The notes under the pieces were generated by a model. The model searched no databases. It had not been told where the DNA came from and worked only from the letters and a program-made list of their open reading frames with translations. Both the position numbers and the translations under genes were made by a program. A stretch of DNA of 64,000 bases from Isoetes taiwanensis. Its lineage: Eukaryota; Streptophyta; Lycopodiopsida; Isoetales; Isoetaceae. Positions 17,788-46,205 of this stretch are shown here, piece after piece (the stretch's first letter is position 1; each line of letters begins with the position of its first letter). The stretch covers positions 3,767,962-3,831,961 of the forward strand of contig JAJEKV010000054.1 in NCBI GenBank assembly GCA_021234155.1, in the 5' to 3' direction.

Positions 17788-18015
17788 ACTTGAGGTTCTA
17801 GATAGACGTCTGCAATTACTGAGCCCTCAGTACTCATTATCTCCGCTTGTCTAGTATCATCATTACTACAAGGGTTTTTCCCTTGAAAACCTTTCGAGGC
17901 AGGGGTTTTTTAATCCTAGTAGTAATTATTGTACTAGCCCATTGTATGGGTCCCATGACCTATTGGTCTCCGTGGACGTTAAAAAAACTATTCTATTCTA
18001 TTCTATTCTATTCTT
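17788..18015 (+). mobile_element. 5'-truncated copy of the (ATTCT)n-tailed non-LTR retroposon
   Basis: 17788-17990 is nearly identical to 13213-13412 (last codons plus 3' untranslated part), and the same pentanucleotide tail follows (17989-18014). Severe 5' truncation with a preserved 3' end is the hallmark of target-primed reverse transcription. Just upstream a 23-bp direct repeat (ACTCTAGCTAGCTCTCGTAC, 17749-17789) marks the junction. Confidence 0.8.
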
Positions 18016-23374: not shown

Positions 23375-23376
23375 GT

Positions 23377-23389
23377 TGGTATCAGAGCC
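23377..23389 (+). other. Primer-binding site of element A
   Basis: TGGTATCAGAGCC lies 2 bp after the 5' LTR and is complementary to the 3' end of plant initiator Met tRNA, the usual primer of Ty3 chromoviruses. Confidence 0.9.
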
Positions 23390-23511
23390 CAAAGTTCTGA
23401 CAACCTTGGGCCGTGGGAATTAAGGGTTAGAAACTTAAGAAATCTACTGGAAAGTAGAGTTGTTTTATGGAAAATAACCATTGCCGTCATTTTCCAGGTG
23501 GTTAGCAGAAT

Positions 23512-26500
23512 GTCGAGAAATAATGATAACAGTTCAAGAGCTGGGGGAAGTGGCACTGCTCCTACGATAACTGAGCAAATTTTGGCAGCCATGCAGCAGC
23601 AGCTTGCCACCATGCAACAGCAGCTTGCCTCCAAGGATGCTGACCTTGATGAGGTCAACAAGGTGTTAAAGCAACTGAAGATGGAGACATTTAGTGGTAA
23701 AGATACCACAGGCGAGGATGCTGATGCTTGGTTGAAAGGGATCGAGTTTTATTTTCAAGTTAAGAAAACCTCCGACCTATTAAAGGCAACCATTGCCGAT
23801 ATGCTATTAACTGGACCCGCCAAGATCTGGTGGGAAGAGTATAAGAAGGTTAATCATCTTTTTCTGAGCCAGATCACGTGGAGTACCTTCAAGGTAGCAT
23901 TTAAACTCCATTATTTACCTGCTGGGTTTGAGCTAGAGCAAATGAACAAGTTTCAAAGTTTGGTTCAAGAAGATACAGTAGAAGTATATGCCAATGCATT
24001 TAGGGCTTGCAACCGTACGGACCCACTATGACAGTGGCACAATTAGCTGACAAATTTATTCGTGGGCTCAAGCCGGAGTTGACTTTGTTAGTTGGAGGGG
24101 TAACCTATCCCAGCCTAGAAGAAGCTATCCGAGTCTCCAAGTTCAAAGAGCAAGTCCAGAGTCGGATCACCAAAAGTCGAGAGGAAACAACCCAAAAGGG
24201 ATACCCTCATAAGCAGAAAGAGAGAGATCCTTTGCGGCTTCTGCGGATACTCGAGGAAATGCACGTTCTACTCAAGAGAGGCGGTCAAATGGACCAAGCC
24301 GGATGAGTTCCGAGGAGCAGGAACATTGCCGCCGAGAAAGATTGTGCTACTATTGCAAAGAAGCTGGGCATATTTCAGCTCGTTGTCCTAGGAAGTGGCA
24401 AAATAGGGGCAATGCAGGACCACAAGCTAGTAGTGGGAACCCAGGAGACTGGAATAGGCTAGTAGCGAGTACGCCAAGTGTTAGTGGACCTCAGAATATT
24501 CGTACAGAGGAGAGGCCTGCACGAGCTAAAGCAGTCACATTAGAAGAAGCAGGAGCAGCACCAGATATGCGTGCATACGCCATTGGTGGAGACCCTGCTG
24601 AGTATATTGCTACTGACATTATCCATCTACCAGGTAGCATTCGAATGCAACCTTTTCATTTTTTATTGACAGTGGTAGCACACACATTTTATTTCGCCTA
24701 GATTGGTTGCTCAGATGGGTTTGAATGTCATTGCATGGAATCCTAGATCCGTAGAGTTCGCATATGGTGTGATTAAGATGCCAGATGGATTTGTGCCTCG
24801 CCTGGACTTTAAACTCTGTGGGATAAAGTTTCATACTAACTTTGAAGTCCTTGATCTTGGTAAGTACGATTTAATTCTCGGAATGTCGTGGTTGTGATAC
24901 GGCACTAGCTTGGGGGGCGTGGCTCAGAGGAATGATTTGTAGAGACAAACACAGAGGCAAGGGCATTGGATAGATAGTATGAATATTCTGATTGATAACC
25001 TTAGGAGTTCTTTAATTATAACGTGTAAAAGCAAGAAACCATTGAAATGTTAAAAGAAAGGAACAATTGAAATTCTAGTAAACAAAAAACAACGAAACCA
25101 TGTAAACAAACGATACAAAAGAAAAAGCAGAACCTTTTTGTTGACGGAAGGCTGAAACGGGCCGGATCTTCCGGAAATAGCTCCTGGGCCCTCAAAGCTG
25201 GCCGGATTACAGGAAAAGGGTGTCGGATTTAGCTAAAAAGGTAAGGGAAATCCAGATTTAGCCATGCAATGCCCTTTTAGAGTAGTATAAATGAATCGAA
25301 TTGCAGAATTGTGGCAGCCGGAAGTGTTTGGAATGTGATAGAAGTCTGACTGCTGTAGATCTTCTGATAATTGTAGTTGATTTGAGTGCTATCCTTAGCT
25401 CTAGCGAATTCTAGAGAATCCCAGAGAGGCTATCCAGTTGGTTAGCAGACTCTCAGAATTGGGAAGAGATTGAGCCAGACTTGCTGTGTTTGCAAATCAG
25501 AGCCCGGTTGGGTGGATAAGTAGTGCCAGAAGAACTTGATCTGGGATTGGATTAACCGTTTTTGTTAGTTTTGCAGATAGATTTGCAGATAGAGAAGACC
25601 GTTTGTATCAGGTTGAAAGCCGTAGGAGCCTACATCGACTGTAAAGGCAAGGCTGTCCTTGCACCTTGTCAAATGATTCTATCAAGAGATTGGGTAGTCG
25701 CCCTATGCTCTCTGGGCCTTCCGTGTTGACTTGCAAGCAGGCAAAGCGCTATTTGCGCAAGGGAGGAATCATGTATGTTGGAATGATAAGTAAAGCCGCA
25801 GAAATGCAAGAAATTATTATTCCAAAAACTATTCAGGAGGTGTTAGAAGAATTCAGGGATGTGTTTCCTGACAAGTTAACAGAACTGCCTCCCTTTCGTG
25901 AGGTGAACCATGATATTGAATTGCTTCCAGGATCTGCACCACCTTCGCGACCCCCTTATCATTTTAATGTGGTAGAGATGGCAGAGCTTAAAAAGCAGCT
26001 TGAAGAATTGGTAGAGCAAAGCTTTATTAGGCCTAGCACATCTCCATTTGGAGCTCCTGTCTTATTCGTAAAGAAGAAGGATGGAAGTCTGCGTTTGTGT
26101 GTAGACTATAGGCTGTTAAATCAGGTAACTATCAAGAATGGTTACGCTTTGCCACGAGTGGATGATCTATTTGATCAATTACTTTTCAAAGATTGACTTG
26201 CGATTTGGCTACCACCAGATTCGGATTAAGGAAGAGGATATCCCTAAAACTGCTTTTCGCACCAGATATGGCCATTATGAATTTGTGGTAATGCCATTTG
26301 GGCTTACCAATGCACCAGCCACTTTCATGAGGCATATGAATGATGTTTTTCGAGCTCATCTTGGCCAATTTGTGCTTGTGTTTTTCGACGATATTCTGAT
26401 TTATTCGAGAACACTTGAAGAGCATGTTGAACATTTGCGCTCAGTTTTGAAGCTTTTAAGGCAACATAAACTTTATGGTAAGCTTTCCAAATGCAGTTTT

Positions 26501-28425
26501 GCTCAAGAGCAGCTGATTTATTTAGGCCATGTTATCTCCAACAAGGGAATTGAGCGGGGTCCTGAAAAGGTAAAAGCTATACAAGAATGGCCACAACCTC
26601 AATCTATAAGGGAGATCCGGGCATTCATAGGATTAGCTGGATATTATCGCAAGTTTGTAAAGCACTTTTCCAGGAAAGCAGCTCCATTGACCACCCTACT
26701 TCAAAAAGACTTAGCATTCCAATGGTCAGAGGCATGTGACCAAAGTTTTCAAATTCTAAAAGATGCCTTGACGCATGCACCAATCTATGGAGCGGGACTT
26801 TTGTGTGGTAACTGATGCCTCAGGCACTGGGATTGGATGTGCTTTATTACAAGATGGCCATGTATGTGCGTATGCATCAAAGAAACTTAATCCAGCTGAA
26901 CGGAATTATCCAACGCATGATTTGGAAATGCTTGCAATTGTGCATGCTTTAAAATTATGGAGGCATTATCTTTTGGGTAAATTTCTCCTCAAGACTGATC
27001 ATCAGAGTCTTAAGTATTTCCACGCAATGGGACAGCAATCTCACGCAGTTGATCCGGGAGGATTCTTATTTCCAGCCTATAGTAGCAGCACTTGAGCAAG
27101 GGAAAAACAAGAATCCCTATAAGATTGAAGCATCCAAGTTATTCTACCACAATCGGTTGTGCATACCGGATAATGCCGAGCTTAAACAGCAGATTATGAG
27201 AGAAGCTCATGATAGTCCAGTATTGGGTCATCCAGGAGTTCAGAAAACTCTTCGTAAGGTCCGCAAGCAGTTCTTTTGGCCTAGCATGAAGAAGCAAATT
27301 TTAGGCTACGTGGCCAGATGTTTACCATGCCAGAAGGTGAAAGCGTCTCACCAGAAGGTCGCAGGGGAATTGCAACCGATGGATATTCCTGATACAAAAT
27401 GGGAAAGTATAGGTATGGATTTTATTGTGGGATTGCCTAAGACACGAGCAGGATATGATTCCATCTATGTAGTAATGGATCGTCTCACCAAACAAGCCCA
27501 CTTTATGCCAACCAAAATCACGGCTACTGCTGCAGATATTGCTAAGATTTTTATCAAGGATATATTCCGTCTGCATGGTATGCCTAAGGTTATCGTGTCA
27601 GACTGAGACACACGCTTTGTTGGCCAGTCTTGGCAAGCATTGTTCCACGGGGTCGAACCCAATTAAGGATGAGTACATCCTATCATCCTCAAACCAATGG
27701 TCAAGTTGAAAGAGTTAATCAGGTTGTCGAAGACATGCTCCGGATGTATGTTCCCGAACATCCGCACACTTGGGAATCTTATCTGTACTTAGTTGAGTTT
27801 GCCTACAACAATACATATCAAGATTCCATAAAAATGAGCCCATTTGAAGCAGTATATAGGCAAGAATGCCGATACCCCTTGACTTGGTGTAGTCCGCAGT
27901 GTAAAGTTGATTTGGTCCAGACCATGGGGGAAGATATTGGGACACAGCTCCGAATTATTAGACAAAATATTGCCAAAGCACAGAACCGACAAAAGCAATA
28001 TGCTGATAAACGGAGAAGACCTTTAGAATTCCAGGAGAATGATATGGTGTTCTTGAAGATTAACCCTAAGCAGGGCACATTGAAGTTTAAGAAGGCTGGC
28101 AAACTAGCACCTAGATATGCAGGTCCTTTTAAAATCATACAGAGGATCGGCAAGGCCGCATACCATTTGGAATTGCCTATTGACGTCAAGGTCCATAATG
28201 TATTCCATGTTAGCAACTTACGCAAGTATCTCAGTGATCCATCACATATACTGCCACAAGATAACTTGGTTGCAGTAGAAGAGACACTCGCAGTAAAGCC
28301 GCAAACAATTTTGCGAGTTGATACTAGGGTCCTGAGGAATCGCACCATCGAAAAATATCTAGTACAATGGGCAGAATATCCGCAAGAAGATGCGACATGG
28401 GAAGACGCTGACAAGTTCAAGAAGT
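23512..28425 (+). pseudogene. gag-pol region of element A (fossil)
   Basis: Gag has an MSRNNDN start and a capsid-like region with WLKGIEFYFQV. A zinc knuckle CYYCKEAGHISARC follows. Protease region ends YDLILGMSWL. Reverse transcriptase shows [16 protein letters not shown] and [10 protein letters not shown]. RNase H shows [14 protein letters not shown]. Integrase has an HHCC finger (HPGVQKTLRKV..., CLPCQKVK) and a core GMDFIVGLP. The end has chromodomain-like words YLVQWAEYPQEDATWED. The order PR-RT-RH-IN marks Ty3; a chromodomain-like end marks the chromovirus clade. Broken in several places and interrupted by a solo LTR. Confidence 0.92.
24895..25610 (+). repeat. Solo LTR (716 bp) with 5-bp target duplication, inside element A
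   Basis: The block starts TGATAC and ends GTATCA, the short inverted ends of an LTR, and is flanked by GGTTG on both sides (24890-24894 and 25611-25615). A TATA box (TATAAAT, 25286-25292) sits in its middle. No coding sequence. It lies between the protease part and the start of the reverse transcriptase part. Recombination between the two LTRs of a full insertion is the usual origin. No other copy of this LTR family is in the window. Confidence 0.88.
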
Positions 28426-30413
28426 TTTTTTTTTTTTTTTGAAGGACGACAAGCTTTATTCACCAACTAAAAACCAGGGCAACGTAAAATGCAAAGACAG
28501 GATTATAACTCCAGTGGACAAACCGATCCAACTGAGCACAACCACCTGCCTATGCAAAAGAATGAATCTGAAGGTAAGTATGCCAGATCAGTACTTTCTT
28601 CTCTTGATCAAGAGAAGAACAATTGTAAGCCATAACAATTTTATTTTGCCCATGAAGAACAATCTCATCCGGTATCTACGCCCTTAAAGATAAACAACCT
28701 CCTTCTCTTCGGATTGACCATAAAAGCCCGACCACATGCGAGATGAAAAGCTTCGTTTCGTAGTTTGGGCCAAGCATCGGGATAGATAGCAAGCAAAATT
28801 CTTTGGCTAGATCGAGACGTGCCAAATAGGGTCAACAACCAAGACCATGCCTGCCCGGCCGCTCACACAAGAAGAAACAATGCTCAATACTCACAACCCT
28901 TTCTTTGGCATAAAGGATGAGCTCTCGAAATCCGATTATCCATTTTATGGACTAACCTATTGACTCGAGGCATCTATGGATCACTTGCCACTACAAAACT
29001 ACTACTTTGGGATGAAGCAGCTTATCCCATACCCATATCCAAACACTTTTCCATTGTGGTCGAGGGACTGAAGATGCCACCTATTAGATGGAGGCAGGAT
29101 TTGAATGCAAAAGCAATTTATACACGAAGACACAAACCGCCTACGGCCTGGATATCCCGATGGCAACCCCATACGACTACCTCAATCGTGGACCGTAATC
29201 CCGCGTGGCAACAATGCGGCAATATGATTCCAGATTACTCATTGTCCCATCCGTACAACAAAAACTTTGTTCTAAATCGCCCCATGACATGAGATGACGG
29301 ACTCATACCAAGCCGCAATAGTGTCGATATACCAACACCGCTACCGTCGTTGTGTCTTTGGATGAACAACCACACTTAGAGGCACATTCTGCGAGTGTCC
29401 CTGCAAAGAAATCCACCAGCATGGAGTGGACAAATCAAGACATGCCTCGGGATTAATATGGAAAAGAGACTGACAAAGTGTCCCAAGCAACAAGCAACCC
29501 CTTTAGGGAGAAGCATTAGGATCTGGATGCATATGATAAAGCAAAACCCAAGGAAGGAGGGGCTTAATGGTGGCCTTATGAAATGGGAGACAATTTGAAT
29601 CATTTCGCACCAACAACCTCGGGCCGGGAGAATCATCCTTACCAATGAAAATCCTCCAAATGAACTTTGATATCATCACCTTGCTTTGGAGGTGAAAATC
29701 CAACATACCAAGACCACCGGTGCCTTAGGTCTAATGCATTTAGCCCAAGCTACCTTGACCCTTTGCTCCTAACTCATTTCCACCCCAAATAAAATTTTTG
29801 ACGATACGCACAATCTCCTCCATCTTACACTGCGGAGCTAATAGAGCAGACGCCATGTAGACATGAGTATTACTAAGAACACATTTAGCCACAGTGATTC
29901 TACCGGGCATGGACAGTTTAGTTGTATTCTACCAAACAAGTGCTTTTGCAACCCACTAATGATTTCATCCCAAGCATCTGAAGCAGAGACGTGAATTCCA
30001 AATCAAGCAACTTTGTGGTATTGCCATGCAAAAGAATCTTCCATGGATAGTCCAAAATACAGGGAGGGATGGGACTGTCCAACATCTACAAAACTGTACA
30101 TTTTTGCCACCCTACAAGAACTCCTGATGCTAAGGAGAATGTGTCTAATAATAGCTTAGCATTACGAAGATTCTCAGCCTCGGCAATTAGGAACAAAAAA
30201 GTGTCATCGGCATATTGGTTACATACCTCTTGAGAACCATCGTCCATTGGGAGGCCTTGAATAATGCCATCTTGGGTAGCCACGGAGAAGAGCTGGGATA
30301 ATACTTCTGCCACAATTGTGAAAAGCAAGGGTGCTAAGGGACAACCTTGCCGAATTCCTCTACCCACTACAAAAATATCTGATGGCTCGCCCTAGAAAAC
30401 GACAGTAGATCTG
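28425..30413 (-). mobile_element. 5'-truncated LINE (L1-like), minus strand, with poly(A) tail
   Basis: A 16-base T run at 28425-28440 is the poly(A) tail of a minus-strand insertion. The minus strand reads RSTVV, GEPSDIFVVGRGIRQGCPLA, PLLFTIVAEVLSQLF and CNQYADDTFLFLIAEAENL (about 30406-30130), the reverse transcriptase core of L1-type LINEs with its YADD box. Further on come FHLQSKVMISKFIWRIF (29690-29640) and a 3' part down to the tail. Stops and frame changes are present, and the 5' half is absent. No target duplication could be found next to the tail and the 5' junction. It is the same LINE family as the copy at 46210-49085. Confidence 0.85.
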
Positions 30414-30477
30414 GCTGATTATATTCGACCATTCCCATAACTCATGAGGACATGAGTTGATTTTTACAAGGTGAGAA

Positions 30478-32480
30478 TGTAACGAACCTAGGGGCTTAGA
30501 CTAGCTTATAGTCGCATGTTCTAGTAGAATAATTGTGTCAGTATCGGATTGTGCAACTCATGGTTGATATGCTTCTATGGGTGCATTGGGGGCGATATTT
30601 AAATTACATAAGAAACTTTAGCTAAGGTTATTTAAAACCTTAATAGATTCAATTCAAAAGAGTAAGCACCTTAAAAATAGGGGAGAAAGAATCGTGGCTG
30701 CCAGATAGCGGGAGGATTCCGCTTAGAGATGCATGTGGCATGCCAATTTACCATCTGGCCTAATCCTGGGATGGATCCTGCCAGTGTTCTTAAGGCAAGG
30801 GTATATAAGAAATAGAAGAGTTGGCCGGATGGGCAAAAATGAGGAGGAAGAGAATCGGTTGGGCTGATCAAATTGGAAGCAGAGCAAGGGAAACAAGAGT
30901 CCAAAGCTAAACTCTGGTGGGGATTTGATCTATTTCATGATTTTGCAGCCTGATTGGGGTTGGATTATGTAGAGATGAGTTTCTGAAGCATGCCGCCACT
31001 TGTCTGTACGCCAAACTCCAGTTCATTAATAAAATCTGTCATGTCAATTTGTTCTGTGCTCCCAAATCTGGCAGGCCCTGCTTGAATTCGATCATCTGAT
31101 CCTATGAACCTTAGCTTGCTTCGGTCGGTTATGTAAAAATAATCCTTCTGTCTGCCTCTCCACTGCCGTGGTCAAGATTGTAAATCCGTCTTCTCCTCTG
31201 GGTCCTACTCTAAAGATAGTGCTTTGCACCCTGAATGTATTTTGGAGATGAATTTTCGCCTGAGGCGAGCCTGCAGATCCAATCGGCCAGGCCAAAAGTG
31301 CCGCTGTTGATTTGGTTACAGTCATTTTCTGATTTCTATTAAAGAGGGATACCAGGATCCGGTATCCCCAGACCTTTAAAACCTTATTTTAAAGTTAAAG
31401 CTTAAACCCTTAAGTTGTTATAAAGTTAAACCTTAAAACCCTTAAGTGTTCTTATCAATTGTAGTTACCTTCTACCAACCGCTAGGCAAACACACCCTAT
31501 GAGCCCAAGATTCCATTGAATGTTGTTGCCGTCCCGTAGTAGGGAAAAGTATCTGCCTGGCTAGTGTATATTGTGGGATGTTTATGCGTGCATTTAAGAT
31601 TGTTCTATAAGTATGAATAGGGTATGGGGCACCTTACGGAATTGCATTATATATCTGAGATGGTATTATGGATATGGTGCACTTGAATCAAAGAATGTTG
31701 TGCATTTGCATTCAACGGCCCACCTTCGGAGGGGTGGGGTGGCCGTGTAACTCCGCATTCGTGCCAGATGGCCTGACGGATGAGTTGAACCTTGTACGTA
31801 CAGATGGAGAGAGTGGTCTCCTTGGGGTCGCCACCCAAGGATTACGCTTGGCATGTAGTATGCATGGAAAATGGTAGTCATAGAATGTACTAACCTTGCA
31901 GGGGAACGTAACAGGTAAATCACGTATTATTGTTATTGTTATGCATGAATGTGAAGATCCCAATGTCCCTTCCCACTTAGTCCTTGTGGACTAACCCCGG
32001 ATGTTGATATGTAAGATGGCACGTCCTGAAGCCACCATCGTGTTGGATCTAGACTCTTTTGTTACCTGGTGGTTCAATGAGACGGAGGCGGAACCTGCTT
32101 TAATGTCTAAGGAACGAGTTTACGAGATCCTAATATCATTGTTCAGGGAGTTGTATTATGCGCAGAGGCAACCCCAAATTGAGGCCCAAGACCCGGAGAC
32201 GGATGGGGAGTCTTCCGGGGATAGCTCTAGCGACTCCTCCTCGGTCACGTCCGAGGAGGGGGAAGATCAAAGGGCCAATTAAGCATGGGGGACAGGGTTG
32301 GCTTGGGTTTTTGTATATTATGGGTGTAGTGTGAACTCTCTTTTTATGTGTGGCCTTGGGCCTGATGTAAACGATTTGATTGTAACCAAAACTCTATGAA
32401 TATAAGTTCAGCATGATTTGATTGTCTATATCCGAGTTATTCAGTGCAACGGCCTAGGCCAAGGGGCTAGGTCCGTTTCA
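30478..32480 (+). repeat. 3' LTR of element A (2003 bp)
   Basis: Begins TGTAACGAACC and ends GGTCCGTTTCA; followed by the TATAC target duplication. It lacks the TIR element of the 5' copy. An open frame (32001-32282) inside it is shared with the 5' LTR (22894-23124); it lies in LTR sequence and shows no known domain. Confidence 0.93.
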
Positions 32481-32720
32481 TATACATATGCTTTACCATA
32501 ATTTTTCCAGGAAGTTCTGATATGACAGGACTGCAAAGAGAACAAATGCATTCAATCCATCTGAAGGGGAGCTGTTCTACTTGCGTCTTTTGCTGACTCA
32601 TGCACCAGACCCCACTAGCTTTGAGGACCTATGTATGATTGATGGACAATTGTACCCAACTTTCAAAGATGCCACTGTGCAACATGGATTGATTCGAGAT
32701 GACATATCTGAATGGCTTAG
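32481..32720 (+). pseudogene. Helitron middle block, between elements A and B
   Basis: Reads NAFNPSEGELFYLRLLLTHA, PDPTSFEDLCMIDGQLYPTF and KDATVQHGLIRDDISEWL (about 32540-32716). This is the highly conserved segment that follows the Rep region in plant Helitron proteins (GE.FYLRLLL....G.TSFEDL...DG..Y.TF..A...GL). Its right end carries the CTTAG copy used by element B. Confidence 0.88.
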
Positions 32721-34359
32721 TGTGACGGTCCAGGGGAATATACGCTATAAATACGCATATTCCTGGATCCGTCACTATACAAGTCTATCATTCATAGCCT
32801 TGTATACCATAGGGGTGGCACTAGGGGGCATGGCCAAGTTATTCTCATAACTTAGCCAACCATAGGTTAAGCCATTATCCATGTGGCCTTAACCTATTGG
32901 GGCACCGCCACACAGGACTCACCCGATTGGTGCCACGTGGCATCCTAGGTGGACCTAACTTATATAGGCATAAACCCTAACCCTAGACCTCTTTTCCAGC
33001 CCTAGCACCCAGAGACTCACCTACTCGTTCGAAACCCCGTTTCGAACATCGTTTGTTGTGGCATAGACTGGTGCAGCAGCCCCAGTAGGGTAGACTCGTT
33101 CTTGGAGCAAGAGCAGCATCACGTGAGTCGAAGACCATGGAGGCACACGGATCTGGAGGGAGAGCATCAGGAGCAGGTATGTAGGGTAGTAGTTGTGATA
33201 GCTCATCTGGAATTAGCATTCCAGATGTGCTAGTATCTTGTATCTAGAGTAGAGCCATCCTAGAACCCATATTCAACATCTTGAACCCTAATCAAGGAAC
33301 CCTAACTATTAGTTAGTTGTATGATTAGGTTAAGATGTTCTTCTTATGATTATTCTCATGATGATTATGTGATGATGGTTGATCATGTTTGCTCCTCTTG
33401 TATTGGGAAGGGGGGTAGAGACCTAGAGCCATATGTAGTATGCTCCTAGAGTAGATCCCTTAGTTCCTATTAGATGCGGCCTGTGCATAGGAGCCCACCA
33501 GGCTATTGAGGCTATGATATGACTCAGCACCATACAACGGGCTAGAGGGAAAGTGGAGGGAGGATCCCCGAGGAGTGGGGGCTTGGGGGATCCCATAGTG
33601 GGGCTAGGCTTATGGTGGGTCACACCGTGTGGGCGAGCATGGGTCCCACACCTCTGGGGCAATGGTGTCGCCTCGCCTCTCGAGAGCTGCAAGTGTCGGC
33701 CTTGGCTCTCGTTTTGGGGGGTTCAGTCGGGGACGAATCGTGTGTCGCCACGATTCTCTAGCCGCCCACGGCACCTCTAGATCGGGGAAGGGGAGATGCA
33801 ACCCTTCACCTCCGGCCGGACCGGGGAGATGCAACTGGAGTAGTCCCGGTGGGTGATGCCCGGGATTGCGTATCAGGAAGGCTAGAGTCCTGTCGAGCCC
33901 TGATTTAGCCCATCCGCAAAGTATGCACGGGAGGGGCGGATGGAGTGGTCAACCCTAGCCATTGTTCTATGCCAGCCCACCGCCATTGCCATGACTCGGC
34001 CTGTTTCTATCTTGAGACCTAGCGGTCAGTCATCCTCCCTTACGAGTCTGAGCCGGGGTAGGAGCTCTCATGTTTCACGGTTTGTGTTTATCATCTTTGC
34101 ATTGGTATATGCGTGATGCACTACCCTTCGAGGTAGTATTTATATATGTTTGATGCTAGTTCTGACGTGTTATCGCTTCCCATTTGTTATAGGAGCCCAT
34201 AGGGGAAGGGCGCAAGGCACCTTTCAGATTATTCCTTCCCGCACTAGGAGTCACCTCGAGTCGCGGAGTAGGCGAAGGGCCCGCAGCGGTTCTTGAGCGG
34301 ATGGGGGATTTCTGCCGAAAGTGTAACGGAGGCCCGTATGTTTGCTTGGGGCGTCCACA
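32721..34359 (+). repeat. 5' LTR of element B (1639 bp)
   Basis: Begins TGTGACGGTCC and ends in CCACA just before the primer-binding site. It is identical to the 3' LTR for hundreds of bases (for example 33235-33555 against 44770-45110) but differs by many small indels in a GC-rich stretch (33600-33900). Confidence 0.93.
32961..32980 (+). promoter_or_regulatory. 5' LTR promoter of element B: TATA box plus telo-box
   Basis: TATATAGG (32961-32968) is followed by AAACCCTAA (32972-32980). The 3' LTR has the same pair at 44506-44525. Telo-boxes near start sites are known binding sites for plant TRB-type proteins, which can bring in Polycomb complexes; that role here is inference. Confidence 0.55.
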
Positions 34360-34360
34360 A

Positions 34361-34372
34361 TGGTATCAGAGC
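34361..34372 (+). other. Primer-binding site of element B
   Basis: TGGTATCAGAGC starts 2 bp after the 5' LTR and matches the complement of the initiator Met tRNA 3' end. Confidence 0.92.
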
Positions 34373-34934
34373 GATGTTCTTGGTTGACCAAGAACTAGCA
34401 CTGACCATAACCATGAAGTAGTCTAACAGGCCTATAGGGGTGTGGAATAAACATTCCACCATCGAACCGCGAAAATGGGGGAAAAATTTTTCTCCTAGGT
34501 AGTGGGTCAGGAATTAGGCTAAGTGTTAGACGAAGAATTGTGAGAGGCAAACGAATTTTCTAGTAAAATTGGAGTGAAAATTATGCATCTGCATCAAATT
34601 TCACCTAAAATGGGTCGAAGAATCATGCCAATCAGAGGCCCAGGTGAAAAATGGCGCAAATTCATAAATTGCACTTCGAACCATTAGGAAAATTCGAAAA
34701 ATTAAAGATAATATCAATTAATATAGGTTAATATGTACATTAATAGTTAAATAATTAATTAAATATCTTGTAATTAATAAGGGGGGGCTAATAAATAGGG
34801 GTAATTATGGTAGGAGAATATTCCCAGGGACCCTCCTTTTTAAATATCTGACACCTCATTTTTCTCTCTCCAACCCTTCACCTCAAACCTTCTCTTGCCC
34901 AGCCCTTCGTCACCCGTTTTCTGAACCATAAGAT
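34373..34934 (+). other. Leader of element B
   Basis: AT-rich non-coding leader between the primer-binding site and the H3-like gene. It ends in a pyrimidine-rich stretch (about 34855-34925: TTTTTCTCTCTCC and similar), as often seen in 5' untranslated regions. Confidence 0.6.
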
Positions 34935-36044
34935 ATGGCCCGCACCAAACAAACTTACAGGAAGACTGGCCCGAGGCCTACCCTCTCCATGGCGCAGGCA
35001 GCGGGTCGACATGTGAAGAAAGTACCGGAGCACCTCCGACCCAAGAAAGGAGAAGAGGAGCCTCCCACCAGCAGCAGCAGCAGCAGCGAAGCCTCGTATC
35101 ATGATGCCGAGAGCGGCCCCAGCAGCAGCCCTTCGTCGGCAGGGACACAAAAGACCGGCGAGTCCCGCCACTTCGGAGCCACAGATACCGAGGTGGAGGA
35201 ACAGGTTGAAGAACAGGTGGAAGAGCAGCACCACCACCAAACCGACGAAGCGGGCCCTTCAGTGCCCAAGAAGAAGGGGAAGGAAAAAGTCGCGGAGTGG
35301 CCAGAGGAGAGGGCCGCCAGGAAGAAGCGGGAGAGGGAGAGGGAGCTGAGAGAGCAGGAGAGGCGGACCAAGAGGAGGAACGACGGCCCTCGCCGGACCG
35401 TTGTCATTGAAGAGCCCCGGCCGGAGGAGGAGCCACAAGTGGAGGGCGACGAAGAGGAGGAGGAGGAGGGGCAGCAGGACCCCGACGCGAGGCCACCCTA
35501 CCCCAAGTGGCCGGAACCACCTAAGGTGGTGAAGAAGCAGAAGGTGGGGGAGCGGGCATTCGCGCTCCAGCAGGACCGAGAGTTCAAGAGGAAGATGGTG
35601 GCATACAAGGAGTACCTCCGTCGCTGGACGAGGTACAATGAGTGGTATTGCCAGCAGGAGGTCCAGCGCGTCGTAGTGGGGGGCAGGCCAAAGAAGAACC
35701 AGCCCAAGCCACCCCCACCAAGGCCAGAAAAACCCGAGAGGGTTCACCACGGGCCAAATAGCACATACGCCCGGGTGTTTAGGGAGATTCGGCACTTCCA
35801 GATGTGCACGAATCTCCTTATAAGGAAGGCGCCCTTCGAGCGTCTCCTTAGGGAGGTATTGCAGCAGTTCCGGACAGACTACAGGGTAACCCCTCTAATG
35901 ACCCGGGCTCTGCAAGAGGCCTCCGAGGCAGAGCTGGTGCAGCTCTTCGAGGAGGGAAACCTCTGCGCTATCCATGCCAAGCGGGTAACCCTTATGCCTA
36001 AGGATATCCACTTAGCACGGAGGATCCGCAGGGAGAGGCCCTAG
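34935..36044 (+). CDS. Histone H3-like protein encoded by LTR element B
   Basis: A whole 369-codon frame with an ATG at 34935. Residues 1-7 are MARTKQT, identical to the H3 start, followed by RKTG, so Lys4 and an Arg-Lys pair at 8-9 are kept. Residues 283-369 are a full H3 histone fold: REIRHFQ (alpha N), [15 protein letters not shown] (alpha 1), a loop of canonical H3 length with [24 protein letters not shown] (alpha 2), [16 protein letters not shown] (loop 2/alpha 3) and the end [10 protein letters not shown]. By eye about 59 of 87 residues match canonical H3. Loop 1 is not lengthened as in CENH3. Between tail and fold lie about 240 residues of Ser runs, a basic helix-prone segment ([19 protein letters not shown]), an acidic run (GDEEEEEEG) and a Pro-rich [11 protein letters not shown] part. 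No introns; GC-rich compared with its AT-rich flanks. It is the first gene after the primer site, so probably translated from the genomic RNA. A nucleosomal or chaperone-bound role is inference. Confidence 0.87.
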
Positions 36045-36273
36045 GCCTCAAATTTTGTAAATTTTGTAGATGAACTAAAATTTTCATGTAATTATGTTCC
36101 TCATTAATATAAAAGTTCTTTCCCCTCTGTAAAAATGTTGTATGCTTGAAATGTAGGAATTAGAACCCAATTGTGGTAGAGTTCTTCATAGCATGCCTAG
36201 AAACACCCTAGAAATCATGACTACAACAAAATTTTGGCAAAAAAATCATCAAAAATGCAAAAATTGGGCCAGT

Positions 36274-36338
36274 CGGGTGAGACCGCGCCAATGGCCTCTG
36301 CGTCATCGACGCGGGCGCGATCCGCGCGAACTCACCCG
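36274..36338. repeat. 65-bp palindrome-ended unit, copy 1
   Basis: Starts CGGGTGAGACCGCGCC and ends CGCGCGAACTCACCCG, which are imperfect inverted repeats. Copy 2 (36477-36541) has the same length and ends, with changes only in the middle. The GC-rich core contains further CGCG palindromes. It may form a stable RNA stem-loop. Confidence 0.85.
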
Positions 36339-36476
36339 CCTACCCCCAAAAACTTGCTTTTAGATGTCAGTTTTGCCCAAAATAAGTTGCTAGTTAGGTT
36401 AGAATTGGCCCAATTAGCCATGTTAGCATCTCCAAATTCCCAAAAATGACCAAAAATTGGCCCAAAACAGGCCAAC

Positions 36477-36541
36477 CGGGTGAGACCGCGCCAAACGCGT
36501 CTGCGTCCGCGACGCGGAGGCCATCCGCGCGAACTCACCCG
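36477..36541. repeat. 65-bp palindrome-ended unit, copy 2
   Basis: Same ends as copy 1, placed 203 bp downstream start to start. The bases before both copies are also related (AAAAATTGG...CC), so the duplicated block is somewhat longer than the palindrome itself. Confidence 0.85.
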
Positions 36542-37431
36542 GGTCGGGTCATCTTTGACCCAAATCAGCCAAATTTGATCAAACAAATTGCCATGTAGTG
36601 TTTCTTGCTTTGTTTTGCTTAAGTTTGCACTTCATGGTAGCTCATTTGGACACCCAGAGCCATAGAACCAAGACCATCTTAGGTAGGCACCTTTTTGCAC
36701 GAACCCCGAGGTCACCCATAGTCTATAAAATAGGTCTCATTTGCCATTTTTCCTTCTCTGAATCGCGCTCCCAGCCCCTTAGGGCGATTTTTGAACCCCC
36801 ATCGATCCTTGCAAGCCATTTTCTACACCCTTTCTTGCTCAATGGCCCGGCAACTTTGAGAGATGGTACAATGTCGCCAGCCATATCCATGCGCCTTCGA
36901 AAGAGATCAAGCCTTCTCGTGTTTGATCACTTGTTTGATCTTCACGCAACCCCGACTAGAACACCCTACTACACGACATTATGTGCCAAGATGACCAGCA
37001 GGTCCCGCCTTGGGAAGTTAGGATCGCCTCCTAGGGAGGGAATTGGGTTTCCCTTGAGACACTTACCCAAGCCTTAGGTCGAGAGTCGGGGGATCCAGAG
37101 GCAAGAAGCAGCTATGGGATAGGACTAGGACCATGCCCGACACATGACTGCGCAGCATAATAGGCATAGGTACCTTTCAGCTCGATGCATGCCCTCGCCC
37201 TCTTCATGCACTATAAGTCAATCAACAAAGTAGGGGAACCTCTGTTCAGCCCCTTAGACTTAGCGCCCACTCGATACCGTGAGAGCCCAGGATCAAATCC
37301 ACGAATATAGAGTCCTCCGCCCACTTAATATTTCAAGCACCACGCGGGCGCACCATCTCTACGAGATCCATGAAGACTACGAGCAGCTAGGGAGCGAGAA
37401 CCCTTAATGGGAGAGCAGGGAGGCAACAAGA

Positions 37432-38378
37432 ATGCGGAGATATGCGTCGAGGCATGACGACGACGTGAGAACGGCTACTGATCCACCAGTCGGCATCACA
37501 GCCTTGTCGCCAATAGTCATCGACGGGGAGGAGTACATTTTTGCAAATGACATCCTCAATCTGTCCTACTGTCAGGAACAGGGTCTTCGAATCGACGAGC
37601 TCTTGGGTATGATAGCACACGGGAAGAGCACAGACATCATCGACTACTCATACCGGGGAGATCCCAAGGGTTTTGGCGGAGAGACACTCTTATCCGGGGA
37701 GACAATGTGGGATATAGCAGCCTATATCCCAGATAAGGGAGATCTATCGACAGTTAGGAGCCTATCATCTCGAGAGGAAGAGTTCCAGCAGATACTGAGA
37801 GCACACTCTACAAACCGGGGAAGGGCCCAAGCTCAAGCTTCACAGTTCGAGCCAGGAGCATGAGGGAAGGGTCCAGCAGCATTAACTTGGACAACGCAAC
37901 CAGCATGTGGAGAGATCATGAAGACCTTATGGCGGTGGATGCCTACGGCGAAGCAGCTCAGAGGAAGGGCACTGGATCGCGAGGCGTAGGGAAGGGCAGG
38001 GCACTTCGCTATTATCTTCCAGCCCTCAGCCAAGGGCAAATGATAGTCTTCCACAAGGAGTTCAGCCCAAGGGGGGAAGAATCCGTGGCACTTCTCATAG
38101 CGCTTTCGGGCTTCGGGCAGCACTCGAAGATATACGCCCATGAAGATCACATCATTCTTTTCAACAGGGCAGTCGCGCTCCATTGCCTCGACTTTGCAAG
38201 AGGGCACCTTAGGGATGCAACACTCTCAGTGGTAGCAGCAACAGCACCTGAACTTCCGGAACCGGAGATGGCCCGAGCACTTGAGGGAAGATCGACGAGG
38301 AACATCTTGCGCAACCTCGGCAAAGGCCTCCGATTCAGGGATGTCAAGAACTTCTTCAGGCTTTCGGGAGGCCACTGA
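37432..38378 (+). CDS. Extra frames of unknown function in element B, upstream of gag
   Basis: Two adjoining open frames (143 and 172 codons) occupy this stretch. The first contains VIDGEEYIFANDILNLSYCQ and a DIIDYSYRGDPKGF segment. The second contains ALRYYLPALSQGQMIVFHKE and ends RFRDVKNFFRLSGGH. I recognise no domain. The composition looks coding (balanced, without low complexity), and the position between the H3-like gene and gag is unusual for a Ty3 element. It could be a captured host gene, a lineage-specific accessory gene, or a diverged piece of another element. AT-rich sequence with an AATAAA (38567) follows before gag. Confidence 0.5.
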
Positions 38379-38639
38379 ATAGTTGAAAAATTTCTTAAAT
38401 TTGTGCTAAATGTTCTTGTACCCATTGTGCTAAGATACATCTGCTTTATTATGTAATCCTTATGTATTAATGACTATTAACTGGTTTGTCAATGTAAGGC
38501 TTTGTATGATTTCTTATAACTAAAGATAATTCAATTTGCAAGTAAAATTGATCGACATCTAACCTAAATAAAATGTATTGATGATCAATCCTTGCAGCAA
38601 GGAACTCAAGAGCAGGATCCCAAGATCAGCAGCGACCAC

Positions 38640-41600
38640 GCAATTGGGTACCAAGGAATTTGTTTGGCAGGGAACAAGAAGATGTTGAGCAGGATATGTC
38701 ACCAGAAGCAGTCAACGCAAGGTTGGTGCAGATGAGGAATCAGATGCAACACCTCATCAACTGGGCGACACCTCTCATGAATGCACAGGAAGATGGTCAC
38801 CCACCTCCACCTTGTTTTCCGGGTGGTGATGAAGTCCCTCAGCAGGAAGGGGAGGGCAACCAGGGGAACGTCAGGGACAAGAGACGAAGAAGGAGAACCA
38901 GGAGTCCATCATCATCTAGTTCCAGCTCATCAGATAGTTCTTCCAGTGACGACAGCTCTAGCTCGACAAAGTGAGTCCGACACACCTAAGGCAAGAAAAA
39001 GGGCAAGAAAGATGATGACTATCGAAAAAGGTGGATAGTGCTATGAGCAATGTGTGGAAGACAAGGAAGCCGGGCCGTTTTGAGGGGAAAGACGATCGTG
39101 CATGGAGGTGAAGCATGGTGGATGAAATGGAAGAATTTGGCAACTCATACGGTATGAAAGACAAGGACATAGGGAAAGTTGCTACAGCTAACCTTATTGG
39201 ACAAGCAAGGATCCGGTGGAAGGGATATGCTAAGTCCAACAAGTGAAGAGGAATAATTGCGTTTAAGACCTTCGCAAGAAGCTTTCCAGTAGAAGCACTA
39301 TGTGCCGAGGTCTCATACTAGTAGACGATTCAAAGCAGTTTTACAAGGTTGAATCAGTGGTACCTTATCTGGCTAAGTATATCAAGAATTCATGAGACTT
39401 AGACTTCATGTCCCGGAGTATCAGAAAGGCAAGCAGTGGACACCTATATTGAGGGGTTGAACAGCAATATCAAGAGGCTTGTTAGAGCAATCAACCCAAG
39501 GTCAGTTGCAGAGGCCGAAGATAAAGCTATAAGTTTGGAGGAGGCACCAGCAACTCCAGCAGAGAAGCAGTCAACCTTCAGGGGTAAGAGTTCAGGCGTG
39601 ATCGGGGGCAATATCGGGGGTAAGCAATCGCCAGCCTACACCATCGGGAGTCGCCAAGAACAAGGTAAGGATAAGAGCAAAGCTTTTTGGGGACCGTGAA
39701 GCCCACGAATGCATCGGGGAAGTGCTCTTAAGCCGTCTCCTAGACACCGATGGCGAAGGAAAAGAGACAGGAATGCATTGAGAAGAAGTTATGCTTCGTG
39801 TGCTTCCTACCCGTAAGTGAGGACACATGATTGTCCATTCGTCATGCAGTCAGCTTTGGCAGAACTCTTGGATTGGGACTCCCCAACAGAAGCGGACGAG
39901 GACGATGAACAGCAGGAGGGCCACGACTTCATAGATGGTGAGTGTCACATATGTGCAAACATTGAGTCGATGAGATAGAGAATCAGAGCCAACTGTCATC
40001 GCGGCTGATGGGATCATAGATAGTAATCCTTATGTAGTCCTCATAGATACAGGTAGCTCTCATAATTTTGCATCTCCTAGATTGGCTGCTCTAATGAAGA
40101 ATAAGGTATTGAAGTCTAAGCCAAGGCCAGAGCTATGGCCTTGGCGCCATTCGCGCACACTAAGGGGAGGAGGATCACCTTTGACATGGACCTTAGTGGG
40201 GCCAAGTGGCCGATGGGAGCAGAAGTCATGGATATTGGAAGGTATGATCTTATAGTGGGAATGGAATTTTTGAAGCCAGCCAAAGCCATGATTGATTGCA
40301 ACCGGAATGAAGTCTCCATGACGGCACCAGACGGCAGCAAGTTGATAGTGAAAGGTAAGAAGCTAGAATCCCCTATGCAGTGTATTTCTTTGAAGCAGCT
40401 AAGGAAGAGTATAGAAAGGAATAAGGTGGATTACATCTTGAGGATGGAATCAGTTGAGCCGTGCAAAGGGGATGGAAGTGACACAAAGGGAAATCAGGGT
40501 TGCCAGGCAGATAGCAAGGCTTATTTCAGAGTTCAAGGATATATTTCGGATGAAATCCGCACCGCCACCTTATAGGGGTGTGGAATGTGAGATCACATTG
40601 GCTCCGGATGCGAAGCCTACCAGTAAGGCGCCATATAGAATGAGCATCCCAGAATTGACTGAGCTCAAGAAACAGCTTCAGGAATTGCTAGAGCTTGGAT
40701 TCATAAGGGCAAGTGTGTCTCCTTTTGGAGCACCTATACTCTTCGTAAAGAAGAAAGACGGGAGCTTAAGAATGTGCATAGACTATCGCCAGCTTAATAA
40801 GCAGACGATAAAGAATAAGTATGCATTGCCAAGGGCAGATGACCTAATGGATCAGCTACAAGGAGCAAAGGTATTCTCTAAAATTGATTTGAGATCAGGA
40901 TACCATCAGATAAGAATTAAAGAAGAGGATATCCATAAGACCGCTTTCAGAACGCGGTATGGTCACTTTGAGTTCACAGTAATGCCCTTTGGACTATCGA
41001 ATGCTCCAGCAACGTTTATGCGCCTCATGAACGATATCTTCAGAGACTTCTTGGATGAGTTTGTTATTGTCTTCTTCGACGACATCCTAATCTACAGCAA
41101 GTCCCTTGAAGAGCATTGTCAGCACCTCAGGAAAGTGTTGGAGAAGTTGAGACGTCATCGGTTGTATGGGAAGCTCTCTAAGTGCCACTTCGCAACAGGC
41201 CGGGTGGAGTACTTGGGGCATGTAGTAACATCCGAGGGAATCTCCACAGATCCATCTAAGATTGAGGCAATAGTTGATTGGCCAGCTCCAAGGAATGTGG
41301 CAGAAGTAAGAAGCTTTCTCGGGTTGGCGGGATACTACGAAAAGTTCGTGAAGGACTTTGCTAAGTGGGCGCCCCCCTCTGTCCGGACCTCACTAAGGCC
41401 AACAAGATTAAGGACTGGGCTAACCATTGGTTAGAGAAAGTCCAAGCTTCCTTTGAGAAGCTTAAAGAGGCCTTAACAACAAGCACCGGTGCTTGTCCTC
41501 CGGATCCGAGTAAGGATAAGTTGGTAGCAACGGATGCAAGCAAGATAGCAACAGGGATCTTGATGCAAGAAGGAAGGGTAGTCGCCCACGACTCGAAGAA

Positions 41601-43409
41601 GATGAAACGCCGAAAGCAACGCTTACCCAACCCATGATCGGGAGCTGCTAGCCATTGTCGGGGCATTGAGGATATGGAGGCATTATCTGCTTTGGGAAGG
41701 AAGTTTCAGTTGGATACCGATCACGAGCCTTCAAGATATTTTTTCACCCACCACTCCTCAACTTAAGACAAAGGAGGTGGATGGAATTCCTTTGAGGAGT
41801 ATGATTTTGATATTATATATAAGCCCGGGTAAGCTTAATGTTGTAGCGGATGCCCTCTCCGAAGACCATTTCGAGACAAGGACGCATTGTAATGCGATTT
41901 CCACTCTTCGAAAGTGAGTTTGGCAAGAAGATTGAGGAGTCCTTGCCAACCGATGTGGACTTCAAGGAGGTATGGGAAAGCCTTTCCAAGGAAGCGAGAA
42001 CAGATAAGGAGCGGGAAGCCTTCAAGCATTATAAGAAGGAAGGCAACTTTGTTGTACCACAAGCATAAGTTGTGTGTGCCCGAATCTTCGTGGGTAAGGA
42101 AGTTAATTCTTCATGACACACATAACAGCCCAATAGCGGGGCATCTTGGCTTCATGAAGACATATTTCAAGATTCAAGTAGCTACTCGGCCAGGAATGAA
42201 GAGGCAGATAGCTGCATATATTGGGATTGCCGTTATGTCACAGACCAAAGGCGGAGCAACCCGATTAGGGTGCTTTAGAGCCATTGGGGGTGCCAAATGC
42301 AAAGTGGGAGGTCATAAGCATGGATTTCATCACAGGTCTCCCTAGAACTCTTCGAGGCAAGGATGCATTGATGGTTGTCGTAGATAAGTTATCAAAGATG
42401 GCGCATTTCGTGCCTTGCAAAACTACTGACACCGCATTAGATACTGCCAAGTTATTTGTAAGAGAGATTTTTAGACTCCATGGCATGCCTCGGGAGATAA
42501 TATCGGATAGAGATTCTAAGTTCATGAGTGCCTTTTGGCAGGATCTCTTTAGCACCATCCAGACGAAGCTCTCCATGAGTACGGCGTATCATCCTCAAAC
42601 AGATGGCCAGACGGAAAGGACCAATCGGATCATTGAGGACATGCTTCGAAGCTATGTGTGGAACAAGCAGTCCAAGTGGGATGAGTACATTCACTTGGTG
42701 GAATTCGCCTACAATAGTGCCAAGCAGGAGTCATCTCAGATGTCGCCTTTCATGGTGAACTACGGCTACCAGTGCTTAACCCCGGATACCTGGCACAATC
42801 CTGTGTCCAAGGTAGAAGTGTCCCAGCAGATGTTAGGGGATATGCAGCAGCTAGTAGAGGAAGTAAGGGGTTATTTATTGGCAGCAAGAAGCCTGTAAGA
42901 GTGTAGCCGACAAGCACAGGACCGTAAGGGAGTTTAAGGTGGGAGATACCGTTTGGTTGAAGATCAAGGTGAAGCAAGCCAAGCTGCGGATTGGGAGCTG
43001 CAAGAAGCTTGCCCCTAGGTGGGCTGGGCCGTTCAAGATTTTAGAGAGAGTGGGCTCTCAAGCCTATAAGTTGGATCTTCCAGCCCATCTTAAGGTCCAC
43101 AAGGTCTTCCACGTAAGTTTATTAAAAAGGCACAATCCTAACCCTGAGGAGGTTTTGGATACTCCAACCTTGTTGGAAATGACGGAGGAGCAAGTAGAAA
43201 TAGTGCCCGAGTTACTTCTTGATAAGTCATTCAAGAAGACTAGGAGGTCTCAATTCCTCCAATATTTGGTTAAGTGGAAGCACTTACCCGTGGAAGATGC
43301 GACATGGGTATTGAAGCAAGATTTGGAGAAGCAATACCCAGAGTTCATGAAGGAGTTTGATGGGCGAGTCGTCTCCGACTTGGTCGACCCCGACTTGCCA
43401 GGTGGTTAG
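38640..43409 (+). pseudogene. gag-pol region of element B (fossil)
   Basis: Gag begins near MSPEAVNARLVQMRNQMQ and includes a Ser-rich stretch and a YIEGLNSNIKRLVRAI segment. Protease has LIDTGSSHNF and ends YDLIVGMEFL. Reverse transcriptase has [20 protein letters not shown] and [10 protein letters not shown]. RNase H has ATDASKIATGILMQ. Integrase has ISMDFITGLP, AYHPQTDGQTERTNRIIED and the GPF.ILERVG-type C-terminal fold. The last domain is a chromodomain (FLQYLVKWKHLPVEDATW). Chromodomains of chromoviruses bind methylated H3 tails or other heterochromatin marks and steer integration. The region is a fossil with about ten breaks. Confidence 0.92.
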
Positions 43410-44268
43410 CTAGTATGTTGTTTGTTAGCTTTGAGCCCGGGCGCATGCATTCCGTTAGGAGGGTGCATGTGCGTAACCTTGGATCGTGTGGGCGATGATG
43501 GGATACGCCTTTAGGGCATTCTCTAGGCCACACGCACCAAGAGGTGCGCATGACCAGTAGGGTCATGTGAGTGAGGAATGAGGCATGGTGGGCGATGATG
43601 GGACATCGATCGGATGATCTCTATGCCACGATGCGGGGTACGCACACCTGGCCGTAGGAGGGTCATGGTGAAGCTTAAGTGATCATGCGCGATGATGGGA
43701 TCGTGAGACGTTCCCTAGCTGAAACCCTCGGGGCATGATGCACTGGGGTGTACTCGATCCGGGGGATCGTGTACAAGGTAGCACTCGATCATGGGCAATG
43801 ATGGGAGCATCTTAAATGATCCCTAAGCTCAAATCCGAAAGGGCCATGATCTTGGGCAAGGTAGTAGGACAACCTTGAGCCAAAAGAGTTCGCCAAGGAG
43901 GTAAGGGGGGTGGTCCCCTAAAACCACAAATTATTAACTAAACTAACGTAATGTGCTCCTTTTGCAGGCAAGTAGAAGGAGGACCTCAACGAGGAGCGCG
44001 TTACGAGAAGCTAGGGGGAGCCATAATTTAGATTATGAACCCTAATAACTCTTATAATAATGTTTGAATTATCGTAGGAAATAACCGTGTTAAGGCTATA
44101 TAATTTTGTATAAGTACAAATATAGCCTAAATTTTGACCTTTAAACTAATAAAACTTGATTACTAAAGTAAAATTAAAGCTTATGACATGTGTTTGTTGC
44201 AGGTATAAGGTAGGTTCGTCACCTTTAGCTGCTAATGTCGAGGACAAGCATTGTCTAAGGGGGGAGAA
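43410..44268 (+). other. 3' non-coding tail of element B with a roughly 100-bp spaced motif
   Basis: GGCGATGATGGGA or close variants start at 43491, 43591, 43688 and 43794, that is every 97-106 bp. The end before the LTR (GGGGGGAGAA, about 44259-44268) is the polypurine tract. The corresponding tail of another copy is at 1-565. Confidence 0.7.
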
Positions 44269-45913
44269 TGTGACGGTCCAGGGAATATACGCTATAAATA
44301 CGATATTCCTCGATCATCACTATACAAGTCTATCATTCATAGCCTTGTATACCATAGGGGTGGCACTAGGGGGCATGGCCAAGTTATTCTCATAACTTAG
44401 CCAACCATAGGTTAAGCCATTATCCATGTGGCCTTAACCTATTGGGGCACCGCCACACAGGACTCACCCGATTGGTGCCACGTGGCATCCTAGGTGGACC
44501 TAACTTATATAGGCATAAACCCTAACCCTAGACCTCTTTTCCAGCCCTAGCACCCAGAGACTCACCTACCGCTCGAAACCCCCGTTTCAACATCGCTTTG
44601 TTGTGGCATAGACTGGTGCAAAGCCCCAATAGGGTAGACTCGTTCTTGGAGCAAGAGCAAAGCATCACGTGAGTCGAAGACCATGGAGGCACACGGATCC
44701 GGAGGGAGAGCATCGAGCAGGGGTATGTAGGGTAGTAGTTGTGATAGCTCATCCGGAATTAGCATTCGGATGTGCTAGTATCTTGTATCTAGAGTAGAGC
44801 CATCCTAGAACCCATATTCAACATCTTGAACCCTAATCAAGGAACCCTAACTATTAGTTAGTTGTATGATTAGGTTAAGATGTTCTTCTTATGATTATTC
44901 TCATGATGATTATGTGATGATGGTTGATCATGTTTGCTCCTCTTGTATTGGGAAGGGGGGTAGAGACCTAGAGCCATATGTAGTATGCTCCTAGAGTAGA
45001 TCCCTTAGTTCCTATTAGATGCGGCCTGTGCATAGGAGCCCACCAGGCTATTGAGGCTATGATATGACTCAGCACCATACAACGGGCTAGAGGGAAAGTG
45101 GAGGGAGGATCCCTGCCGAGTGGGGGCTTCGAGGGATCCCATAGTGGGCTAGGCTTATGGTCGGTCACTTCGGTGGGGCGAGCATGGGTCCGACACCTCC
45201 CCGGGCAATGGTGTCGCCGCCGCCTCGAGAGCCTGCAAGTGTCGCCTTGGCTCTCGCTTTGGGGGTTCGATCGAGGGGACTAATCGTGGTGTCGCCCACG
45301 ATTCTCTAGCCCACGGCACCTCTAGATCCGGGGAAGGGGAGATGCAACCCTTCCCCGCCTCGCCCGGACCAGGGAGATGCAACCCGAGTAGTCCCGGTGG
45401 GTGATGCCCGGGATTGCGTGTGATCCAGGAAGGCTAGAGTCCCTGTCGAGCCTGATTTAGCCCATCCGCAAAGTATGCACGGGAGGGGCGGATGGAGTGG
45501 TCAACCCTAGCCATTGTTCTATGCGGCCCACCGCCATTGCCATGACTCTGGTTCTGTTTCTATCTTGAGACCTAGCGGCCGGTCAGTCATCCTCCTTACG
45601 AGTCCCGAGCGGGGTAGGAGCTCTCATGTTTCACGGTTTGTGTTTATCATCTTTGCATTGGTATATGCGTGATGCACTACCCTTCGAGGTAGTATTTATA
45701 TATGTTTGATGCTAGTTCTGACGTGTTATCGCTTCCGCTGTTATAGGAGCCCATAGGGGAAGGGCGCGCAAGGCACCTTCGTATTCCCTTCCCGCACTAG
45801 GAGTCACCTCAGAGTGCGGAGTAGACGAAGGGCCCAGACGGTTGCTGAGCCGGATGGGGGATTTCCTGCCGAGTGTACGGCCGGGCGCCGTATGTTTAGC
45901 AGGGAGCGTCACA
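44269..45913 (+). repeat. 3' LTR of element B (1645 bp)
   Basis: Begins TGTGACGGTCC and ends GAGCGTCACA, followed by the CTTAG duplication (45914-45918). TATA box and telo-box are at 44506-44525. Confidence 0.93.
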
Positions 45914-46205
45914 CTTAGATATCTTAGAGAGGCTGTTGTATGGGGTATGTCTACCCAGCTACGACATATGTTTATTATGATTTTATTGTATTGTGGACTT
46001 GCAAATTCACTAGCCATTTGGGTGGAAGCACGCCATTTCATTGTGGATGACTATTTGCATGACACGCGTACTCAAGCTAGAGATCTCATCTTGCAGGCAA
46101 GTGAGCATCTATTTGACATGGCATTACATGATATTGAAAAGCATCTTAAGGTCACAGGCAAGTCCTTAACATCTTTTGGCTTTTGTACATATGATGAACA
46201 CTTTG
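45914..46205 (+). pseudogene. Helitron block after element B
   Basis: Reads RYLREAVVWGMSTQLRHMFI, MILLYCGLANSLAIWVEA and MALHDIEKHLKVTGKSL. This is the Helitron segment after the TSFEDL block (...EA..WG...QLR.LF..ILL.C...NP..LW... then DIE..L..NGKSL..F). The PIF1-type helicase part should come next, but a LINE starts at about 46210 and the remainder was not found in the window. Confidence 0.85.

Follow-up and report, generated by a model that had tools for sequence, protein, structure and literature searches.

In the 64-kb stretch of Isoetes taiwanensis DNA analysed here (the window), a chromovirus of 13.2 kb, which is a chromodomain-bearing Ty3/Gypsy LTR retrotransposon, carries between its 5' LTR and gag an open frame of 369 codons, and the C-terminal part of this frame is, with certainty on its sequence, a true H3 histone fold. 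The reading that we favour is that the chromovirus has acquired an H3 gene from its host as an accessory gene, for which an anti-silencing use is likeliest; confidence and doubt are about evenly matched for this reading. The H3-bearing element is known from one copy, within the 64-kb window.

The H3-like frame and its parts

The first-pass annotation had described a 369-codon frame that begins with MARTKQT, ends in an H3 fold and stands between the 5' LTR and gag, and on re-reading all of this was confirmed: the frame itself, both of its ends and where it lies. The frame and its parts are as follows.

34935..36044, + strand: H3-like open reading frame, 369 codons plus stop, with Pfam and PDB matches
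34935..34964, + strand: start of the H3 tail, codons 1-10, with the K4 context kept and A7 changed to Y
35055..35744, + strand: inserted block, residues 41-270, recognized from composition and structure prediction
35775..36041, + strand: H3 fold, H3 positions 47-135, from Pfam, PDB and alignment with plant H3

A search with the Pfam Histone profile (PF00125), suggested as a check by the first-pass annotation, matched the fold at E 6e-28 with 98 bits, the Pfam cut-off for this family being 26.4 bits, and PDB H3 chains match the C-terminal part of the frame at E about 3e-31; the PDB matches number 176, and the best 60 of them bear the name H3 in 59 cases and 'Histone domain-containing protein' in the remaining case. 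H3 positions 47-135 align between the frame and plant H3 with no gap, loop 1 included, and 58 of the 89 residues are identical, in keeping with the earlier count by eye of about 59 of 87 against canonical H3. The sites changed relative to plant H3 include K56 (to M) and K79 (to R), and positions 87-90, which fall in the stretch separating H3.1 from H3.3 for chaperones, read LMTR. CENH3/CENP-A is likewise an H3 variant with a divergent N-terminal part, and loop 1 of CENH3 is longer than that of canonical H3; because loop 1 of the present frame has the canonical length, the frame is not a CENH3, and a CENH3 origin was rejected. When the 369-residue protein was compared with the 64-kb window by tblastn, only the self-match was found below E 0.8. 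Structure prediction, also suggested earlier, returned the order of helices expected for H3 and fell short in confidence over the fold, where both models are weak (mean pLDDT 56.8 and 57.1). Foldseek matches to the predicted structure carry nucleosome or H3 titles at TM about 0.4 and rmsd 13-18, and we use them for nothing more than the order of the helices.

The frame opens with MARTKQT-RK, so that 9 of its first 10 residues match H3; the ARTKQT context of K4 is kept and the context of K9 is altered (YRKT instead of ARKS). H3 likeness of the tail past the first ten residues, which would run as far as VKK-PHRFRP, is not relied on here, because it is no better than that of shuffled sequences: 786 of 5000 shuffles reach it for residues 12-60, and 761 of 5000 equal it for residues 8-60. 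No ARKS at a K27 position was seen by eye in the protein; an AARK at residues 127-130 falls within a predicted basic helix.

The length of 369 residues contrasts with about 135 in H3, whose tail adjoins helix N directly. The two H3 halves had been said to be parted by about 240 residues, and we obtained much the same spacing, about 230-240. The inserted block consists, in order, of a Ser-rich part, an acidic part, a basic predicted helix (residues 123-149), a second acidic part, a further helix, predicted at 204-247, and a Pro-rich linker; pLDDT per ten-residue block is 90-97 in the helix at 123-149 and 68-94 in that at 204-247. The block has no Pfam family above the cut-off, the PDB search with residues 120-269 gave no match, and in the protein search with residues 186-276 not one of the 79 candidates reached E 10. 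Of 1000 second-order Markov sequences matched in composition, 2 had a forward frame open for at least 369 codons; the openness of the inserted block says little by itself, because 128 of 1000 such sequences were open over the length of the block alone. That the block is a retained intron is unlikely, its GC content being about 60% with a codon-like GC3. Judged from its position in the sequence, this arm of about 230 residues would sit near the point where the H3 tail leaves the nucleosome core.

Some past constraint on the fold, before or after capture, is suggested by the distribution of its replacements: loop 2 and helix 3 differ from plant H3 at 2 of 17 positions, compared with 29 of 72 in the rest of the fold (Fisher p 0.045). 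We simulated unconstrained drift of the 89 fold codons of canonical H3 up to 31 replacements; among 3000 runs, 13.6% remained without stops, 0.13% remained without both stops and frameshifts (a figure that leans on an assumed rate of one indel per ten substitutions), and 2.3% conserved loop 2 and helix 3 as well as observed. The observed mean BLOSUM score was matched in 78 of 500 drift simulations, and the replacements are thus not clearly milder than drift. GC contents at the three codon positions are 0.635/0.446/0.749 in the frame versus 0.485/0.394/0.512 in the reverse transcriptase; the frame is therefore codon-structured, with an origin or a pressure unlike that of pol.

Concerning expression, the leader upstream of the frame (34360-34934) contains ten ATGs that open short frames of 2-34 codons, and because of these ATGs translation of the frame from the full-length RNA appears unlikely; expression would require splicing of the RNA or else a promoter inside the element, and either is plausible from the sequence. 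Immediately ahead of the start codon, 125 nt have no ATG and are pyrimidine-rich. CTTGCCCAG at 34894-34902, which resembles a 3' splice site, and TTAAATA at 34840 are possible candidates for a 3' splice site and for an internal promoter, respectively.

The chromovirus around the frame

The features of the element outside the H3-like frame are listed below.

32716..32720, no strand: left target site duplication CTTAG, from sequence context
32721..34359, + strand: 5' LTR (TGTGAC...CACA), from BLAST with ends set by eye
34360..34934, + strand: leader, with ten upstream ATGs
34361..34372, + strand: primer binding site TGGTATCAGAGC, following the 5' LTR
37408..38375, + strand: open frames between the H3 frame and gag (37408-37860 and 37758-38375)
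38585..39696, + strand: gag in several frames, Ty3_capsid weak in 39403-39696 and the rest by eye
39974..40572, + strand: aspartic protease pieces in two frames, RVP_2 at 2.2e-4 (39974-40252) and 0.0023 (40120-40572)
40442..41431, + strand: reverse transcriptase, RVT_1 at 3.4e-40
41606..41914, + strand: RNase H piece, RT_RNaseH at 2.4e-5, at the cut-off
41893..42895, + strand: integrase (H2C2, rve) in two frames, 1.4e-6 and 1e-10
42867..43406, + strand: integrase C-terminal SH3 domain and chromodomain, SH3_Tf2-1 at 1e-23 and Chromo (PF00385) at 1.1e-11
44257..44268, + strand: polypurine tract AAGGGGGGAGAA, adjoining the 3' LTR
44269..45913, + strand: 3' LTR, from BLAST with ends set by eye
45914..45918, no strand: right target site duplication CTTAG, from sequence context

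The proposal that the H3-like gene lies within an LTR element is supported, the gene being enclosed by an LTR pair, a matching 5-bp duplication, a primer site, a polypurine tract and pol domains. The CTTAG duplication previously attributed to the LTRs was seen outside both of them, and the LTRs end in TG...CA; the BLAST alignment of the LTRs spans 32721-34355 and 44269-45910, the outer LTR ends having been set by eye. The primer site TGGTATCAGAGC is of the usual plant initiator-Met tRNA type. The pol order is protease, reverse transcriptase, RNase H and integrase, with the chromodomain at the integrase C-terminus. Since the Ty3_capsid match (E 0.002) is below Pfam's cut-off, gag is identified weakly, and its frames are broken.

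About 4 kb ahead of gag look extra, because in a second chromovirus of the window (20507-32480) the gag frame starts about 140 nt past its LTR; the 5' LTR of this second chromovirus (20507-23374) seems split by about 840 bp (21175-22013) in comparison with its 3' LTR (30478-32480). The frames at 37408-37860 and 37758-38375 have no Pfam family, their PDB searches gave a best match of E 0.78 for the former and none for the latter, and they may represent another gene that the element has acquired. Also between the H3 frame and gag lies a direct repeat of 101 nt (36238-36338 and 36441-36541, 76% alike), whose first copy contains GATCCGCG, the plant histone promoter octamer, reversed. We rejected this octamer (36319-36326) as a signal, because the window has 2 matches and at least 2 were found in 8 of 100 shuffles, which is not significant; the plant histone nonamer was found in the 64-kb window only at 18935.

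Two family relatives of the element, cut by the window ends, are at 2-2210 (79.9% identity) and, on the minus strand, at 62453-63993 (76.2%), and both stop short of the H3 slot. Another Ty3-type element, at 51671-61846, has 2.2-kb LTRs and an 873-codon frame with reverse transcriptase and RNase H (56041-58662). A PPR open reading frame of 542 codons with an E motif (7692-9320) is the only clear host gene seen in the window and by its type points to a land plant as host, and short direct repeats are present at 12670-12771 and 12823-12924 (99%) and at 13210-13434 and 17787-18012 (96%).

Divergence between the two LTRs of the H3-bearing element requires a careful reading. BLAST identity is 92.8% over 1672 columns, with 53 mismatches and 48 gap openings, and a gap-tolerant alignment has 126 mismatches and 26 gap openings, the counts varying with alignment settings. 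The three longest stretches without any difference measure 345, 253 and 127 bp, and the first two of these point to a possibly young insertion. Among windows of 80 columns, the 8 with less than 50% GC are 97.8% identical overall, 5 being wholly identical, and the 12 with at least 50% GC are 85.8% identical overall, 1 being wholly identical; the split by GC is imperfect, one window of 57% GC (at column 160) showing no difference and three low-GC windows differing at 3-6 columns. In the gap-tolerant alignment, 17 of the 26 gaps are of 1 bp, and 67 transitions stand against 59 transversions. Mismatches are clustered also in the LTR pair at 51671-53828 and 59687-61846, where 1-bp gaps are 15 of 24, and for the LTR pair at 22013 and 31134 we counted 29 transitions against 9 transversions, with no gap of 1 bp. 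Clusters of this kind are not what uniform ageing would produce; they look like errors of the consensus in GC-rich stretches, and exchange with a diverged copy is a further possible source. Counter to consensus error, the H3 frame itself has 61% GC and no break. Because the LTR differences look like consensus error, neither the age nor the breaks of gag and pol, about nine frame changes in 4.8 kb as counted by eye, can be safely read, and such error in the LTR pairs would distort dating of both elements (32721-45913 and 51671-61846). An old insertion whose H3 frame was kept by selection, a view based on the 92.8% LTR identity and the broken gag and pol, is weakened by this windowed comparison.

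Known captures and competing explanations

Protein searches covered 5.8 billion proteins, of which only the candidates sharing most words were scored. Identity reaches up to 69% among the best 120 of 3117 matches of the whole frame and the best 120 of 7970 of the fold. None of the best 120 whole-frame matches covers more than 45% of the query, and identity among the best 120 fold-only matches is 50-68%. Because 11 of 12 inspected proteins from the fold search contain H3 twice or in part twice, the score ranking of that search is of little use; the fold-only search scored 7987 candidates, and a closer relative is possible beyond them. In the IMG/VR viral contigs, none of 147 pattern matches is a relative. 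No LTR retrotransposon with an H3 gene was found in titles or starts of abstracts, among the matches listed, in the open-licence literature (which excludes subscription papers and preprints).

Capture of H3 is already in print for fungal hAT transposons. A hAT element of Pyrenophora tritici-repentis, with many copies, carries H3L, for which ESTs exist and which is described as quite unlike the typical H3 of its group (PMC3538342). As with our frame, H3L is an H3-like extra ORF within a transposable element; the carrier is a fungal DNA transposon there and a plant LTR chromovirus here, and in the passages on H3L no long stretch inserted between the tail and the fold is mentioned, in contrast to about 230 residues here (PMC3538342). 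In Pseudocercospora fijiensis and relatives, histone H3 was transduplicated by a hAT element, a host H3 having likewise been captured and mobilised by a transposon; all captured copies in P. fijiensis are reported as RIP-inactivated, whereas the present frame is open (PMC6710886). Maize Bs1 is, similarly to our element, a plant LTR element with captured host gene segments, but these are described as ATPase, xylan endohydrolase and glucanase segments, none with a full-length ORF, and the word histone is absent from the main text of the Bs1 review (PMC13317346). Tat elements of moss and clubmoss have, ahead of gag, an ORF for an acquired RNase H, which resembles the present case in that an acquired domain has its own ORF in the slot between the 5' LTR and gag; the domain and lineage are RNase H and Tat there, and histone and chromovirus here (PMC10508981). 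The function of LTR-element chromodomains is described as generally unknown, save for targeting by that of fungal MAGGY (PMC3350952).

We infer from the sequence, as the obvious step, that H3 was captured from the host by the element. A retrocopy of H3 dropped into the element is unsupported: no A/T run of at least 8 was found, and the flanking exact repeats are at most 9 bp. A somewhat unlikely explanation is that an H3 gene or copy gained by template switching or read-through is functionless and stays open because the insertion is young; this fits the identical LTR runs of 345 and 253 bp and the chance of an unbroken 1.1-kb frame at the gag-pol break rate, which is not low (P 0.13), and maize Bs1 sets a precedent for captured fragments (PMC13317346). 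A fold that is 35% diverged from canonical H3, and yet open with helix 3 kept, argues against it, since simulated drift seldom yields that, although the divergence could predate capture.

It is quite improbable that the host has put the frame to use as an H3 variant with a long tail, the surrounding element being a dead shell. The H3 frame is indeed intact where gag and pol shift frame about nine times in 4.8 kb, but these breaks may be consensus errors, given the clusters of LTR differences, mostly in GC-rich windows, and the long identical LTR runs speak for recent insertion. Such errors, which the assembly seems to contain locally, lend something also to the view that an H3-like gene from elsewhere was wrongly joined into the element; we regard this as very improbable, because the window contains no N, the target duplication and LTRs match, the primer site and polypurine tract are in place, and the H3 frame is located well within the element.

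Proposed function and significance

Under the favoured reading, in which the chromovirus carries a captured host H3 as an accessory gene, the host gene would have been taken up between the primer site and gag. The encoded protein would enter the nucleus, its fold would pair with H4, and it would join nucleosomes or compete for H4 and chaperones. In the likeliest use, the element would thereby either place, at or near itself, H3 that is poor at taking repressive marks, or have a decoy that binds silencing enzymes and readers. In either case the element would escape heterochromatic silencing. The wider proposition is that a whole family of chromoviruses has an H3 variant of its own, which has an arm of about 230 residues and a tail altered where silencing marks are placed, and with which the family builds or imitates chromatin resistant to heterochromatic silencing; this we consider unlikely at present.

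Hosts silence transposons through marks written on histones, and the chromodomain in other proteins reads H3 marks. The present finding, judged from a single copy, points to the taking of a host chromatin protein by a genomic parasite. If this is true, the parasite would act on chromatin directly via a captured histone, beside the predicted chromodomain of its integrase, and a large block would be tolerated at the junction of the H3 tail and core with the sequence of the fold kept.
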